From: Thermoplasmata archaeon
GTDB taxonomy: Archaea; Thermoplasmatota; E2; UBA202; JdFR-43
NCBI GenBank assembly: GCA_021162065.1
Contig: JAGGZK010000061.1
Location: 1-37,102 of the forward strand
Direction of reading: 5' to 3'
Length of the DNA: 37,102 bases
Numbering within the stretch: the stretch's first letter is position 1; each line of letters begins with the position of its first letter. The position numbers were made by a program, and so were the translations under genes. Of the stretch, positions 9,115-37,102 are shown in pieces. Below the pieces are notes generated by a model. That model did not search any database. It saw only the letters and a list, made by a program, of their open reading frames with translations, and was not told the origin of the DNA.

Positions 9115-10085
9115 ACCTTTTTCCACATGGGAGGATACACGCCACGAGGCATGAGCACACGCTTTATATCTGCCACCACTCCTTTATCCTTTTCCATTAT
9201 TTCCCTTGTAGTCATCACTGCCCTTGCTATGGCAACACCTTCGCCCTTTAAAGTTTTTATGGCTATTGTGCTATCTTTCTTTATGCCAGTCTCCACCTCC
9301 GCCACACCTGGAATGGCGAGATTGGCCCCATGGCATATTGCATCTACGGCTGAATCTTTGATGTAGACGGCAGGAAGGTGTGCCAGCAAATCCTCCATGG
9401 GACGAAGATATTTTTTTATTTCCCTCTCATAACCATCTTCTTTCCAGAAGATATAGGCATCCAGCAAATCCTGCAGGATAATGGCCTCCTCCTCTCTGAA
9501 CAGGCCGCTCTTTGTTCTTCTCAATTCCTCCATATGGCCCCCCACACCCAGTTTTTTACCCATATCTTTGCACAGCACTCTTATGTATGTGCCTCCCTCA
9601 CATCCCACTTTGAACAATACATCTCTCCCATCTATCTCAAGAATATTGAGATAATAGATGGTTCTCTGTCTCCTCACCCTTTTGACAGCCGCCTCCTTTG
9701 GAGGTGTCTGCCATATTTTGCCAACAAAGCTCCTTGCCACCTCCTTTATTTTTTTCTTGCTCACGTCACCATGAAGGCGAAGCACAGCCACATACTCCTT
9801 CCCTATCTCATGCATTAACCCTATTGCCTTTGTTGCATTTTCAAGCGCTACGGGTAACACCCCAGTAACATTGGGATCAAGGGTTCCACCATGCCCCGCC
9901 TTGCCTAAATGAAGGATCTCCTTTACCCATGCCGTCACCTGATGCGATGTTGGGCCAGAGGGCTTGTCCACAATAACGACCCCGTTTTGCAGTAATTCCT
10001 CAACGCTTCTCTCCTGTGGCCTTTTCCCGAAGAATGGGTTTGTTTCCGAGTCTTCCTTCACCAATCTCTTCCTTCTTTCCGCCAT
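9105..10085 (-). CDS. cbf5: Cbf5/TruB-family tRNA and rRNA pseudouridine synthase
   Basis: A 326-residue enzyme that converts uridine to pseudouridine, alone in tRNA position 55 or as the catalytic subunit of H/ACA guide RNPs. The catalytic Asp is residue 70 in GGTLDPNVTG. VIVDKPSGPTSHQV (37-50) is the conserved family start of the domain. Residues from about 240 to 315 form a PUA RNA-binding domain. A TATA-like GATTTATACATC lies about 25 bases before the ATG, indicating a nearly leaderless mRNA. The last codons GTG CTG AGG TAG run into the 5' end of tRNA-Ser, a 10-base overlap. The tRNA must therefore be cut from, or compete with, the cbf5 transcript. Confidence 0.95.
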   Translation of the reverse strand: MAERRKRLVKEDSETNPFFGKRPQERSVEELLQNGVVIVDKPSGPTSHQVTAWVKEILHLGKAGHGGTLDPNVTGVLPVALENATKAIGLMHEIGKEYVAVLRLHGDVSKKKIKEVARSFVGKIWQTPPKEAAVKRVRRQRTIYYLNILEIDGRDVLFKVGCEGGTYIRVLCKDMGKKLGVGGHMEELRRTKSGLFREEEAIILQDLLDAYIFWKEDGYEREIKKYLRPMEDLLAHLPAVYIKDSAVDAICHGANLAIPGVAEVETGIKKDSTIAIKTLKGEGVAIARAVMTTREIMEKDKGVVADIKRVLMPRGVYPPMWKKVLR

Positions 10086-34351: not shown

Positions 34352-34687
34352 TCAGAATCCCTTCTCTGCCATGTCGCCCACTATGGGCAGCTTGAACATT
34401 TCTCCCTGATAGGCCTTTATCATGAGTACTATCCAGAGTATGAACATCAGCACTCCTATAAGCACGCTTATGGCCCATCCTATAAAGGGCATCCACCAGA
34501 GCATCCAACCAAAGAGCCAGTATATCACCGATAACGGCAGAAACGTTAGTATGGATTGCATTGCATGGAAGCGTACAAACTTGTTTTCCTTCTCCAGCAG
34601 ATAGAACACTATGCCCGTCACCCATCCAAGCACGTAACACAATGCCCCCTCAATATTTTCCTCCATTCCAAGAGATGTTTTTTCCAT
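34352..34687 (-). CDS. DUF4870/Tic20-like small membrane protein
   Basis: The 111-residue protein contains GIVFYLLEKENKFVRFHAMQS, the hallmark of the DUF4870/Tic20-like family, and about three or four hydrophobic helices with GWMLWWMPFIGWAISVLIG. These proteins are widespread in archaea and of unknown function. AATATATACC on the minus strand upstream serves as a likely TATA box. It is the last gene that looks chromosomal before the element-like region. Confidence 0.8.
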   Translation of the reverse strand: MEKTSLGMEENIEGALCYVLGWVTGIVFYLLEKENKFVRFHAMQSILTFLPLSVIYWLFGWMLWWMPFIGWAISVLIGVLMFILWIVLMIKAYQGEMFKLPIVGDMAEKGF

Positions 34688-34751
34688 GAAAGGATAGAAT
34701 AGAAGTGGTATATATTTTTTCTTATATTATAGGATGGACCCTCAAGAATTT

Positions 34752-34787
34752 TTTAAATGAAAATGCTCCCGCCGGGATTTCATTAAA
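34752..34787. repeat. Imperfect long hairpin at the element edge
   Basis: TTTAAATGAAA and TTTCATTAAA pair with one bulged base, enclosing an inner TCCC GCC GGGA stem and a small asymmetric loop. It lies in the gap between the DUF4870 gene and the first element gene and could mark a boundary or act as a terminator or operator. Confidence 0.35.
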
Positions 34788-34860: not shown

Positions 34861-35010
34861 TTGTGTAATCTAAGTATGGAAATTAAAAGGGAAGCGAAGC
34901 GATTGGGAATTGAGAACCGTTTAGTTGAATTGGATAGGGAATATCATATTTCACGTGGAAAGAGAAAACCGAGGGATTTTGTTGATCTCCTGGAGGGAGC
35001 CGTATGTTGA
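34861..35010 (+). CDS. Small charged protein, 49 residues, unknown
   Basis: A TTG at 34861 lies six bases after a strong ribosome site (GGGGGTGA, 34847-34854), so I prefer it to the in-frame ATG at 34876. The product is Arg/Lys/Glu-rich (IKREAKRLGIENRLVELD, then GKRKPRDFVDLLEG) and mostly helical. No family is recognised. A small DNA-binding or copy-control protein would fit the setting but is not shown. Its 3' end contains the first arm of the interlocking inverted repeats. Confidence 0.45.
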   Translation: MCNLSMEIKREAKRLGIENRLVELDREYHISRGKRKPRDFVDLLEGAVC

Positions 35011-35081
35011 GATTCAAGGATATGGCAGGGGAAGATGTTGCCTCCATGCCTCCTTTTGCCAGGAGATCCTGCCATATCCTT
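34984..35081. repeat. Two interlocking inverted repeats (pseudoknot topology)
   Basis: Arm A GATCTCCTGG (34984-34993) matches A' CCAGGAGATC (35059-35068). Arm B AAGGATATGGCAGG (35016-35029) matches B' at 35068-35081, 14 bp perfect. The order A-B-A'-B' means the two stems interlock as an H-type pseudoknot in RNA, with A' and B' directly adjacent for coaxial stacking. A pyrimidine tract and seven T follow (35082-35100), as at an archaeal terminator. Confidence 0.6.
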
Positions 35082-35099: not shown

Positions 35100-35205
35100 T
35101 GTTTACAAAACGGGGTGATTTGTAAACAAATTGGGGGTGATTTTTGTTTACAAAATTGCCTATTTTGTTTACAAAATTCTGTTTACAGTTGTAAACATGT
35201 AAACA
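35100..35205. repeat. Iteron-like array 1: seven TGTTTACA/TGTAAACA sites
   Basis: TGTTTACA occurs at 35100, 35145, 35166 and 35180, and its complement TGTAAACA at 35121, 35190 and 35198 (first bases). Most are flanked by A/T to give TTTGTTTACAAA. A 30-base block at 35145-35174 recurs at 35379-35408 with one mismatch. GGGGGTGA also recurs here (35133, 35213). An ATG at 35004 could open a 75-codon frame across this array, but its composition follows the repeats and I do not call it a gene. Confidence 0.8.
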
Positions 35206-35250
35206 AAATTGTGGGGGTGATGGCAACGTAATTGCCAATTTGAAAGAAAA

Positions 35251-35259
35251 GTATAAATA
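35251..35259 (+). promoter_or_regulatory. TATA-like box between the two repeat arrays
   Basis: GTATAAATA is preceded by the purine-rich AAAGAAAA, a possible BRE. Transcription should begin near 35281, just before the ATG at 35285. The repeat arrays flank this promoter on both sides. Confidence 0.5.
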
Positions 35260-35284
35260 AGGGTAAAAAAGACAGGTGAGAAGG

Positions 35285-35470
35285 ATGGAATGGGTTAGTG
35301 GAGAATGGATGAATAAAATGCGTGAAAAATGCGTGAAATTTGGGGTTGTAAACATGATTTTCAAAAATTTTGTAAACATGTTTACAAAATCGCCTATTTT
35401 GTTTACAATTTCAAATTTTGTTTACAAAATCGGGCAATTTGTAAACAAAATGGAGGGGGTGAGAGAATAG
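35285..35470 (+). CDS. Possible 61-residue leader protein encoded across the repeat array
   Basis: The ATG lies about 30 bases after a TATA-like box. The first 21 residues (MEWVSGEWMNKMREKCVKFG) look ordinary. The rest is translated from the TGTTTACA-type array and repeats themes such as FVNM, FVNK and ILFT. The stop TAG at 35468-35470 overlaps the first codon proposed for the MazG-like gene. It may be a true small protein, or mainly a leader that couples translation into the next gene. The 16-codon phrase MFTKLPILFT in array 1 mirrors MFTKSPILFT here because of the 30-base duplication. Confidence 0.35.
   Translation: MEWVSGEWMNKMREKCVKFGVVNMIFKNFVNMFTKSPILFTISNFVYKIGQFVNKMEGVRE
35347..35447. 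repeat. Iteron-like array 2: six TGTTTACA/TGTAAACA sites with a 24-bp palindrome
   Basis: Sites start at 35347, 35371, 35379, 35400, 35419 and 35440. The pair at 35371/35379 lies back to back and makes a perfect 24-bp palindrome (35367-35390). Spacings are irregular (8, 19, 21, 21, 24), which excludes a CRISPR array. Location downstream of a promoter and just before the gene chain suits operators of an autoregulator or replication-initiator sites. Confidence 0.8.
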
Positions 35471-35760
35471 AAGAGCATGAAATCTTCAAAAAAGCAATTT
35501 CAAAATGGGGTATAAATGCACAGGTTCATATGGCTATTGAAGAAATGGCTGAATTGATACAAGTATTAATGAAATATCCACGAAAGGAAAATCATTCCAC
35601 ACTAAATGAGGTAATAGAAGAGATAGTAGATGTGGACATAATGTTGGAACAGCTGAAAATGATATTTATAACAGATGCTTATGCTGAGATTCAATATTCG
35701 GAGTTTAGACAATTGAAACTAAAAAGATTGGAGGAGATGTTGAAGGGGGATGAGCCATGA
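35467..35760 (+). CDS. MazG-like nucleotide pyrophosphohydrolase, apparent ATA start
   Basis: The protein (about 97 residues) has NAQVHMAIEEMAELIQVLMKY followed by EEIVDVDIMLEQLK, matching the EExxE and ExxD metal-binding helices of the MazG/all-alpha NTP pyrophosphatase fold. Such enzymes hydrolyse NTPs or dNTPs and occur in many viruses. Homology should begin near IEEHEIFKKAISKWG, but no ATG, GTG or TTG exists there in this frame. An ATA at 35467 lies four bases after the strong site GGAGGGGGTGA and overlaps the preceding stop. The first ATG (35530) would cut off the first helix. Its stop overlaps the next start (ATGA). Confidence 0.7.
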   Translation: MEEHEIFKKAISKWGINAQVHMAIEEMAELIQVLMKYPRKENHSTLNEVIEEIVDVDIMLEQLKMIFITDAYAEIQYSEFRQLKLKRLEEMLKGDEP

Positions 35761-36188
35761 AGCAATATGAATTTCTGAGAGTGGATAAGGAAGCGGGTGA
35801 GAAGATAAAGCACCTGAAAGAGTATCTCCAGAAAACGAAGGGAGGCAAATGGACGACATCCAGGGTGATAAACTATCTGCTGTCCAATAACGGCACATCC
35901 CTGCCGGATAAAGTCATATCGAAGTTCGATGAGTTCAAAGCGGAGATAGAGGTTCTGCTGAAGATCCACCAATTTTCCAGGACACACATAAACTACATTC
36001 TGGAGGAAATAGGCGTATTTGAGGCATTTCTCCTCCAGCAGATAAACGGACGTCTGGATCCACCCTTCGCCAAACACATGCTGGAGAAATTCCCAGCTAT
36101 GGTGAACAGGGAAATGGAGATCCATAAAAACAGGGCAATGAAGAAGGCGAACGAGATTTTTAAAGCCACGCCGGAGGTGCCACCATGA
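35757..36188 (+). CDS. Helical protein with possible ribbon-helix-helix N-terminus, 143 residues
   Basis: No family is recognised with certainty. The first 45 residues (FLRVDKEAGEKIKHLKEYL, then GGKWTTSRVINYLLSNN) have the strand-helix-helix pattern and Thr-Ser-Arg turn of ribbon-helix-helix DNA-binding proteins. The rest is long amphipathic helices that could form a coiled coil or oligomer. It may be a plasmid-type regulator or partition protein. The start is an ATGA overlap with the MazG-like gene, preceded by GGGGGATGA as ribosome site. Confidence 0.6.
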   Translation: MKQYEFLRVDKEAGEKIKHLKEYLQKTKGGKWTTSRVINYLLSNNGTSLPDKVISKFDEFKAEIEVLLKIHQFSRTHINYILEEIGVFEAFLLQQINGRLDPPFAKHMLEKFPAMVNREMEIHKNRAMKKANEIFKATPEVPP

Positions 36189-36283
36189 TAAACCATTTAG
36201 TGGCAATTGCCTATCTCTCAATGGTTTACTGGCTTCCAATCTGGTGGCTTCTTTCTCCGTATCTCCTGGGAGGTGGAAAATGA
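36185..36283 (+). CDS. Micro-membrane protein, 32 residues
   Basis: The gene starts in an ATGA overlap, eight bases after GGAGGTG, and ends in another ATGA overlap. The product is nearly all hydrophobic (LVAIAYLSMVYWLPIWWLL) with a Gly/Lys tail. It is too short for most gene finders. The two ribosome sites and exact overlaps on both sides make it convincing. A function as holin-like or membrane-regulating peptide is a guess. Confidence 0.6.
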   Translation: MINHLVAIAYLSMVYWLPIWWLLSPYLLGGGK

Positions 36284-36435
36284 CGACATTGGATGATTTT
36301 ATGGGAAACAAGATCGATGAAACGCTGTTTTACAGCAATTGGTTTACTGCCTGGTATAACGCATGTTTGAAAGCCGGTTTGGATCCGGAGGAGATTAGTA
36401 AAAAGGAATATTCCAAAAAAAGGAGGAAAAGATGA
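36280..36435 (+). CDS. Small protein, 51 residues, unknown
   Basis: The start at 36280 (MTTLDDFMGNK) has GGGAGGTGG just upstream and overlaps the previous stop in an ATGA. The protein has an aromatic middle (FYSNWFTAWYNACLKAGLD) and a very basic tail (KKEYSKKRRKR), compatible with nucleic-acid binding. No family recognised. Confidence 0.6.
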   Translation: MTTLDDFMGNKIDETLFYSNWFTAWYNACLKAGLDPEEISKKEYSKKRRKR

Positions 36436-36596
36436 GTGAGGAAAAGGAGGAGTTTAGAGTCAGGATCCCTTCTGACATAGCAATAAAGATAAGAATCATG
36501 AAAATTAAGGAAGGATTCACATTTTCATCTATTTTTGAAGAAGCATTAAAGTATTATTTTGAGAAATTACAGGGAAGGGAGAGAGGAAATATATAA
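36432..36596 (+). CDS. Ribbon-helix-helix-like small regulator, 54 residues
   Basis: EEFRVRIPSDIAIKIRIMKI followed by FTFSSIFEEALKYYFEKLQ has the beta-strand, two-helix outline of Arc/CopG-type repressors. These dimers bind short palindromic operators and often control plasmid or virus genes. It starts in an ATGA overlap after AGGAGGAAAAG. It is a reasonable candidate for the protein that binds the TGTTTACA sites or the dyad at 36627-36649. Confidence 0.6.
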   Translation: MSEEKEEFRVRIPSDIAIKIRIMKIKEGFTFSSIFEEALKYYFEKLQGRERGNI

Positions 36597-36668: not shown

Positions 36669-37102
36669 ATGTTTACGGTTTTGGTGGCGGTTGGGATAGC
36701 GGGGATGTTAATTGCAATGCCATATGAAAGTAATGCAGTTATTGGGGCTATTGCTTTAGGTGTAATTGCTGGTGCTACGGCTTTCGGTTTAGGCTATTAT
36801 TTGGGATATATTTCACATAAGAGTGATGAAACTAAAACAATATATTACGTGAATGCTACAACATATACAAATCAATGGAAAAATATTTTTGAAACATGGG
36901 ACAACATCATTAATACAACATTGGCAGGTGTAAATAACACAATAGACATGGTTGAATTACAAAATAATTTTTGGGTAAGGGTGGCAGAAAATAATGTTTT
37001 ACAATATTTAAATAAAACAACATGGGATAGTAGTATTGAGGAAAATATAACAAAAGATTTTGATGATTATATGTTTAATCTCACATGGGTAATAATAAAG
37101 AA
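36669..37102 (+). CDS. N-glycosylation-site-rich membrane protein, 3' end missing
   Basis: The frame opens at ATG 36669 and is still open at the window end (about 144 residues). Two hydrophobic segments come first (LVAVGIAGMLIAM and AVIGAIALGVIAGATAFGLG). A polar Asn/Thr-rich part follows with six N-x-T sequons (NAT, NTT, NNT, NKT, NIT, NLT) in some 85 residues. This pattern suits an exposed surface or virion glycoprotein. Codon use is clearly more AT-rich than the chromosomal genes. It starts about 25 bases after an AT-rich box, so unlike the preceding chain it has its own promoter. Confidence 0.6.
   Translation, partial: MFTVLVAVGIAGMLIAMPYESNAVIGAIALGVIAGATAFGLGYYLGYISHKSDETKTIYYVNATTYTNQWKNIFETWDNIINTTLAGVNNTIDMVELQNNFWVRVAENNVLQYLNKTTWDSSIEENITKDFDDYMFNLTWVIIK

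Follow-up and report, generated by a model that had tools for sequence, protein, structure and literature searches.

The window analysed here (37,102 nucleotides of contig JAGGZK010000061.1 of a Thermoplasmata archaeon, assembly GCA_021162065.1) carries, towards its right end, two groups of a short repeated sequence arranged around a possible promoter, and the question raised by this locus is whether such an arrangement serves replication, transcription, or both. An exact recount of the octamer TGTTTACA/TGTAAACA gives 13 copies within 348 bp (35100-35447), seven and six in number and in both orientations, in agreement with an earlier, sequence-only reading of this DNA:

35100-35205, group 1 sites, at 35100 (+), 35121 (-), 35145 (+), 35166 (+), 35180 (+), 35190 (-) and 35198 (-)
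35206-35346, plus strand, gap between the site groups, 141 bp with a TATA-like promoter, 72% purine, GC 0.376
35347-35447, group 2 sites, at 35347 (-), 35371 (-), 35379 (+), 35400 (+), 35419 (+) and 35440 (-), including a 24-bp palindrome

The window contains 17 copies of the octamer in total against an expectation of 0.63 and a maximum of 3 over 100 dinucleotide shuffles, which bears out the claim of a density beyond chance; the remaining four copies are isolated and lie outside the array. Neither the TGTNNACA variant nor a one-mismatch copy of the octamer occurs between 35051 and 35500. The flanks of the 13 sites widen the consensus to a near-palindrome, TTTGTTTACAAA. One pair of sites forms the perfect 24-bp palindrome described earlier, as read directly from the sequence at 35367-35390, and the 30-base block reported as duplicated at a distance of 234 bp was located at 35145-35174 and 35379-35408, with 97% identity. 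Sites are spaced by 8-24 bp within the two groups and are not contiguous, with no significant helical phasing (p ~0.2). Folding of the two groups as single-stranded DNA is strong relative to shuffled sequence (z of -4.5 and -5.4, respectively), as expected from inverted repeats. Elsewhere in the 1.38-Mb genome there is neither a second close pair of octamers nor a second TTTGTTTACAAA, so that the objection foreseen in the sequence-only reading, an octamer equally dense across the genome, does not apply.

The array lies within an integrated element that extends beyond the window. The final 15 bases of the window coincide with the initial 15 bases of another contig from this genome, C37, and this join is sound, since the frame leaving the window from 36669 crosses the overlap into a 629-aa protein that aligns from end to end with one 628-aa protein in another genome (G006, see below). 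In the joined sequence, copies of a 22-bp direct repeat are found 14,537 bp apart, one of them over the 3' end of a tRNA-Glu(CTC) gene (C37 12192-12266). The element encodes a tyrosine recombinase (C37 11241-12242, Phage_integrase, E 6.3e-37). The GC content of the DNA between the repeats is 0.386, compared to 0.444 in the chromosomal part of the window, and its products include several proteins of membrane-bound appearance and a Zot-like P-loop ATPase (PF05707, 22.2 bits, barely above the cut-off). Given direct att repeats at a tRNA gene, a tyrosine recombinase and a related copy in another genome, this is, by its sequence features, a previously undescribed virus-like element, integrated in the genome and about 14.5 kb in size. 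The array begins 320 bp inside its boundary, and the following features surround it:

34759-34780, no strand, attL, 22-bp direct repeat GAAAATGCTCCCGCCGGGATTT
C37 12187-12208, the other att copy, 22-bp direct repeat over the 3' end of tRNA-Glu(CTC)
34876-35007, plus strand, 43-residue gene, MEIKREAKRLGIENRL...LLEGAVC, with a G006 counterpart in the same place (by eye and by DNA alignment)
35016-35081, no strand, inverted repeat (hairpin) with 14-bp arms at 35016-35029 and 35068-35081, followed by a T run
35285-35470, plus strand, 61-aa ORF that spans site group 2 and may have a leaderless start, about 26 bp past the TATA box
35467-35760, plus strand, MazG-like nucleoside triphosphate pyrophosphohydrolase (phrog_2245, E 1.7e-21)
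35757-36188, plus strand, 143-aa orphan protein
36280-36435, plus strand, 51-aa protein, G006 counterpart by eye (MTTLxDFxxxxIDETLFYSNWxTxWYNACL)
36432-36596, plus strand, 54-aa ribbon-helix-helix-like (RHH; Arc/CopG-like) protein, sharing 50% identity with the one encoded in G006
36669-37102, plus strand, 5' part of the gene for the 629-aa protein, hydrophobic ends, continuing in frame into contig C37

Outside the array region, no intergenic stretch of the joined element contains the octamer, and this confinement indicates that it is not a general operator. On sequence statistics, the array is a cis site that is non-random and specific to the element. Pfam and PHROG scans, covering most of the element's proteins, did not reveal any recognisable initiator, nor a helicase, primase or polymerase. 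No VP4-type match in support of pleolipovirus membership was found in the element. Among the distant ATPase matches in other Thermoplasmatota, four of the eight fetched neighbourhoods were inspected by eye and featured neither shared synteny nor TGTTTACA. In the sequence-only reading the array had been ascribed to an undescribed archaeal element, and this part stands on the att repeats, the recombinase and the relative in a second genome; its iteron-type origin and cooperative operator are both candidate roles of the array.

The TATA-like box that had been placed between the two groups is TATAAATA at 35252-35259, preceded by a purine-rich BRE-like stretch. The GC content of the gap is close to that of the element as a whole, such that an AT-rich unwinding region between the groups is not apparent. 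No family match was obtained for the 61-aa ORF. Around the N-terminus expected for the MazG-like frame (window 35450-35479), there is no ATG, GTG or TTG codon; options for its start include ATA at 35467, a G5 run at 35455-35459 that would shift the 61-aa ORF into frame, or an assembly indel. The 143-aa protein has no relatives in viral contigs, in genome contigs or in 58 related genomes, and its single-sequence structure model, of low confidence (pLDDT 55), was set aside as evidence. For the 54-aa protein, the top fold matches are consistently Arc, CopG and other RHH proteins, each with a weak score.

Clues on the nature of the array come from the related element, found in Thermoplasmatales archaeon HyVt-387 (DRIF01000060.1, G006:C60), a member of the same family but of a different genus. 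The two elements share the RHH gene and, in synteny, eight structural genes, with 30-87% identity. At the place of the array, the order in G006 is a counterpart of the 43-residue gene, the hairpin, a differing set of repeats and, directly thereafter, a gene encoding a CcdA/RHH-domain protein (PF07362, 3.1e-6). The repeats, TATGTTA/TAACATA six times in 175 bp, make up a weaker array (p = 0.04, exact 8-mers), and the MazG and 143-aa proteins as well as the TGTTTACA array are missing from the aligned stretch. The hairpin has identical 10-bp inner arms and an identical 60-bp span in the two elements, with a diverged loop, and among 390 genomes of the phylum it is restricted to these two; three matches to it in viral contigs were discarded, as all lay within ordinary coding sequence and had no arrays. 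Retention of the position and the hairpin along with a changed motif would suit a site co-evolving with the protein that binds it.

When the att flanks are joined in silico, the integrase frame passes the core and stops at 34868, 8 bases before the 43-residue gene, so that the excised circle would carry integrase gene, 43-residue gene, hairpin and array in this order. A similar arrangement is known from the archaeal betapleolipovirus SNJ2, in which a replication operon containing the integrase gene is completed only upon excision and circularisation, and has at its end a conserved hairpin origin adjoining a variable palindrome (PMC13107129). The present element resembles SNJ2 as an integrated archaeal virus-like element with a circularisation-completed integrase operon and a conserved hairpin, kept in both genomes at the operon's end, beside a variable recognition sequence, the operon order being deduced from sequence. 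It differs in carrying thirteen repeats where SNJ2 has a single short palindrome, and in its far larger hairpin with a 40-nt loop. Among the element proteins, no match to Rep-Arvir was obtained with the Pfam and PHROG profiles, a set that does not comprise Rep-Arvir's own profile.

Comparable octamer clusters also occur in viral contigs. Same-orientation triplets were rejected as evidence, and their raw counts carry little weight, since a reversed control 8-mer was matched abundantly as well. Mixed-orientation clusters, in contrast, are enriched relative to the control, in 27/120 versus 4/120 loci and with 43 versus 11 matches for the mixed pattern, and represent 18 sequence-independent groups. 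Genes flanking these clusters include eight for SNF2-type and seven for VapE-type helicases, as well as VRR-NUC and terminase genes. In one phage group (L062, L074, L005, L100, L092, L104, L106), the TGTTTACA clusters adjoin a gene resembling that of the terminase small subunit and not vapE.

The association with vapE was followed in a motif-blind manner in 80 VapE loci (L276, L336-L414) chosen by protein, of which the 600 bp downstream of vapE were scanned. In this set, used without de-duplication, an 8-mer is present at least 4 times in 85% of the loci, and in both orientations in 81%, compared to none of 231 control segments (160 inside vapE and 71 located 2.5-3.1 kb downstream). The motif is lineage-specific, and TGTTTACA reaches at least 4 copies in six loci, a share that is biased upward, unlike the presence of arrays as such, because the query alignment drew on loci with TGTTTACA clusters. 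The gaps between groups average 0.10 lower in GC than their context. In Streptococcus phage Sfi21 (NC_000872), nine copies of AGTAAC in mixed orientation surround an AT-rich tract within the annotated origin (34487-34784), and the Rep helicases of SaPI and SCCmec elements bind iterons located downstream of their own genes (PMC7581432). Taken together, the phage arrays are probably origins, and an octamer array following vapE is probably a general origin signature of phages with this type of helicase. Such arrays would provide a simple, testable route to the origins of a large group of phages, pairing each helicase with its recognition sequence.

The archaeal array shares with those of VapE/D5-type phages the short exact repeats in both orientations, the two groups around a gap, the extent of about 300 bp, the noncoding location, the occurrence once per genome and a lineage-specific motif, which is TGTTTACA itself in several phages. 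However, the phages have an upstream helicase-primase gene and a mostly AT-rich gap, whereas the archaeal array has neither and features a TATA promoter in its gap; lacking both the VapE helicase and the AT-rich gap, it is not classed as a member of this type. It has in common with SaPI/SCCmec Rep-type origins the iterated short sites beside the replication module of an integrated element, although the iterons of the latter are bound by a self-loading helicase encoded next to them (PMC7581432), and none is recognised in the archaeal element.

Taken with the sequence comparisons above, the reading that we favour, tentatively and at slightly less than even chances, is that the array is a cis site bound by a DNA-binding protein encoded by the element, and would serve the excised element as replication origin, or at least as a region controlling replication, and its first rightward operon as operator. 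The origin function is preferred because the layout matches that of the phage arrays and of Sfi21, because the hairpin is conserved, and because of the place following the integrase operon in the circle. In the excised, circular form, the integrase operon would continue across the att junction into the 43-residue gene, to end at the hairpin and array. A protein of the element, be it the 54-aa RHH protein, the 143-aa protein or another, would bind the TTTGTTTACAAA sites cooperatively as dimers, and the two protein-bound groups flanking the 141-bp gap might then attract replication factors of the host or make the hairpin accessible to priming or nicking. The same bound protein would mask the TATA box in the gap and thereby repress its own mazG-143aa-RHH operon, a repression that would couple copy control to expression. 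To our knowledge, the replication start of most archaeal viruses is not known. If array and hairpin do represent an origin, the element, compact at 14.5 kb, would be well suited to the identification of a new initiator of archaea, namely the TTTGTTTACAAA-binding protein.

Several observations count against this reading, and against an origin in particular: the lack of a recognisable initiator, the gap that is not AT-rich, and a cumulative GC-skew minimum that falls elsewhere, near C37:9670, away from the array, although skew here tracks gene direction. Even with 2 mismatches allowed, no ORB-like boxes for Orc1/Cdc6 (TCCANTGGAAAC) were detected in the array or its vicinity. The promoter in the gap and the weakness of the G006 array also weigh against an origin that doubles as operator. 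The promoter would suit the main rival, which we regard as possible but somewhat less probable, in which an element-encoded RHH-type repressor on both groups closes the TATA promoter by looping or coating for lysogenic silencing of the rightward operon, with no part in replication. Consistent with this, the gap is not AT-rich, the box is centred between the groups with group 2 over the transcript start, an RHH-like protein is encoded in the operon, the G006 array directly precedes the CcdA/RHH-domain gene, and a TGTAAACA group is located before an HTH gene in a further archaeal genome. There is also a precedent in the RHH protein omega (ParB) of plasmid pSM19035, which binds 7-10 heptads in both orientations, overlapping promoters (PMC9499535); the archaeal locus is similar in its short two-orientation sites over a promoter and in the RHH-like protein encoded nearby, and dissimilar in its spaced sites in two groups and in the absence of a visible ParA. 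Yet thirteen sites are many for a single promoter while the other promoters of the element have none, the adjoining hairpin is conserved whereas the motif is not, and, were silencing its only role, no origin would be visible in the element. We favour an origin combined with an operator over an operator on its own.

Other explanations appear far less probable. An archaeal provirus origin that uses the octamer family of VapE phages, either because an array together with mazG was acquired across domains from such a phage or because its iterons are fired in trans by the initiator of another virus, in a satellite-like manner, is improbable. It would account for the identical octamer in several VapE phages, for the 40% identity between the MazG-like protein and the MazG beside vapE in L098, for the absence of both array and mazG from the G006 relative, and for the lack of a recognisable initiator on the element. 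However, the MazG family is widespread and also represented in the archaeal phage phiH, no VapE above the family cut-off was found in 59 genomes (that of the window and 58 relatives), with a positive control matched in Lactococcus lactis, and the shared octamer may be a coincidence as these arrays use many motifs. A partition site, or centromere, for a ParB-like RHH protein is somewhat less probable still: omega-type parS sites are indeed mixed-orientation arrays of short repeats at promoters (PMC9499535), but the P-loop protein of the element is Zot-like, a ParA-type ATPase was not recognised, and partition matters less to an element that is integrated. Least probable are arm sites for integrase or excisionase in the attachment region. 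The array does lie 320-690 bp from the att core, but no matching sites occur across the joined att site, and this distance is far by lambda standards and counts against arm sites.

The skew minimum coincides with a divergent intergenic region and its flank (C37 ~9560-9740, L266) with windows of 15% GC, which is a candidate for an alternative origin or a promoter region. The small plus-strand genes that follow and lead into the integrase gene (C37 9743-11251, L266) encode a first product that is perhaps RHH-like and two products with CxxC zinc-binding pairs.

Among the 390 genomes of the phylum, three close copies of the octamer are found only in the genome of the window and in two other contigs, G016:C162 and G019:C121. 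The former, a 4.1-kb contig from the same archaeal family, features ten TGTTTACA/TGTAAACA sites at 2080-2519 (L134) together with TGTGAACA-like variants, flanked by divergent genes without family matches, and is perhaps another extrachromosomal element. In the latter, three TGTAAACA sites at 2451-2502 (L135) are located closely upstream of an HTH-nucleotidyltransferase-like gene followed by a HEPN-like gene, and may perhaps form an autoregulatory operator.
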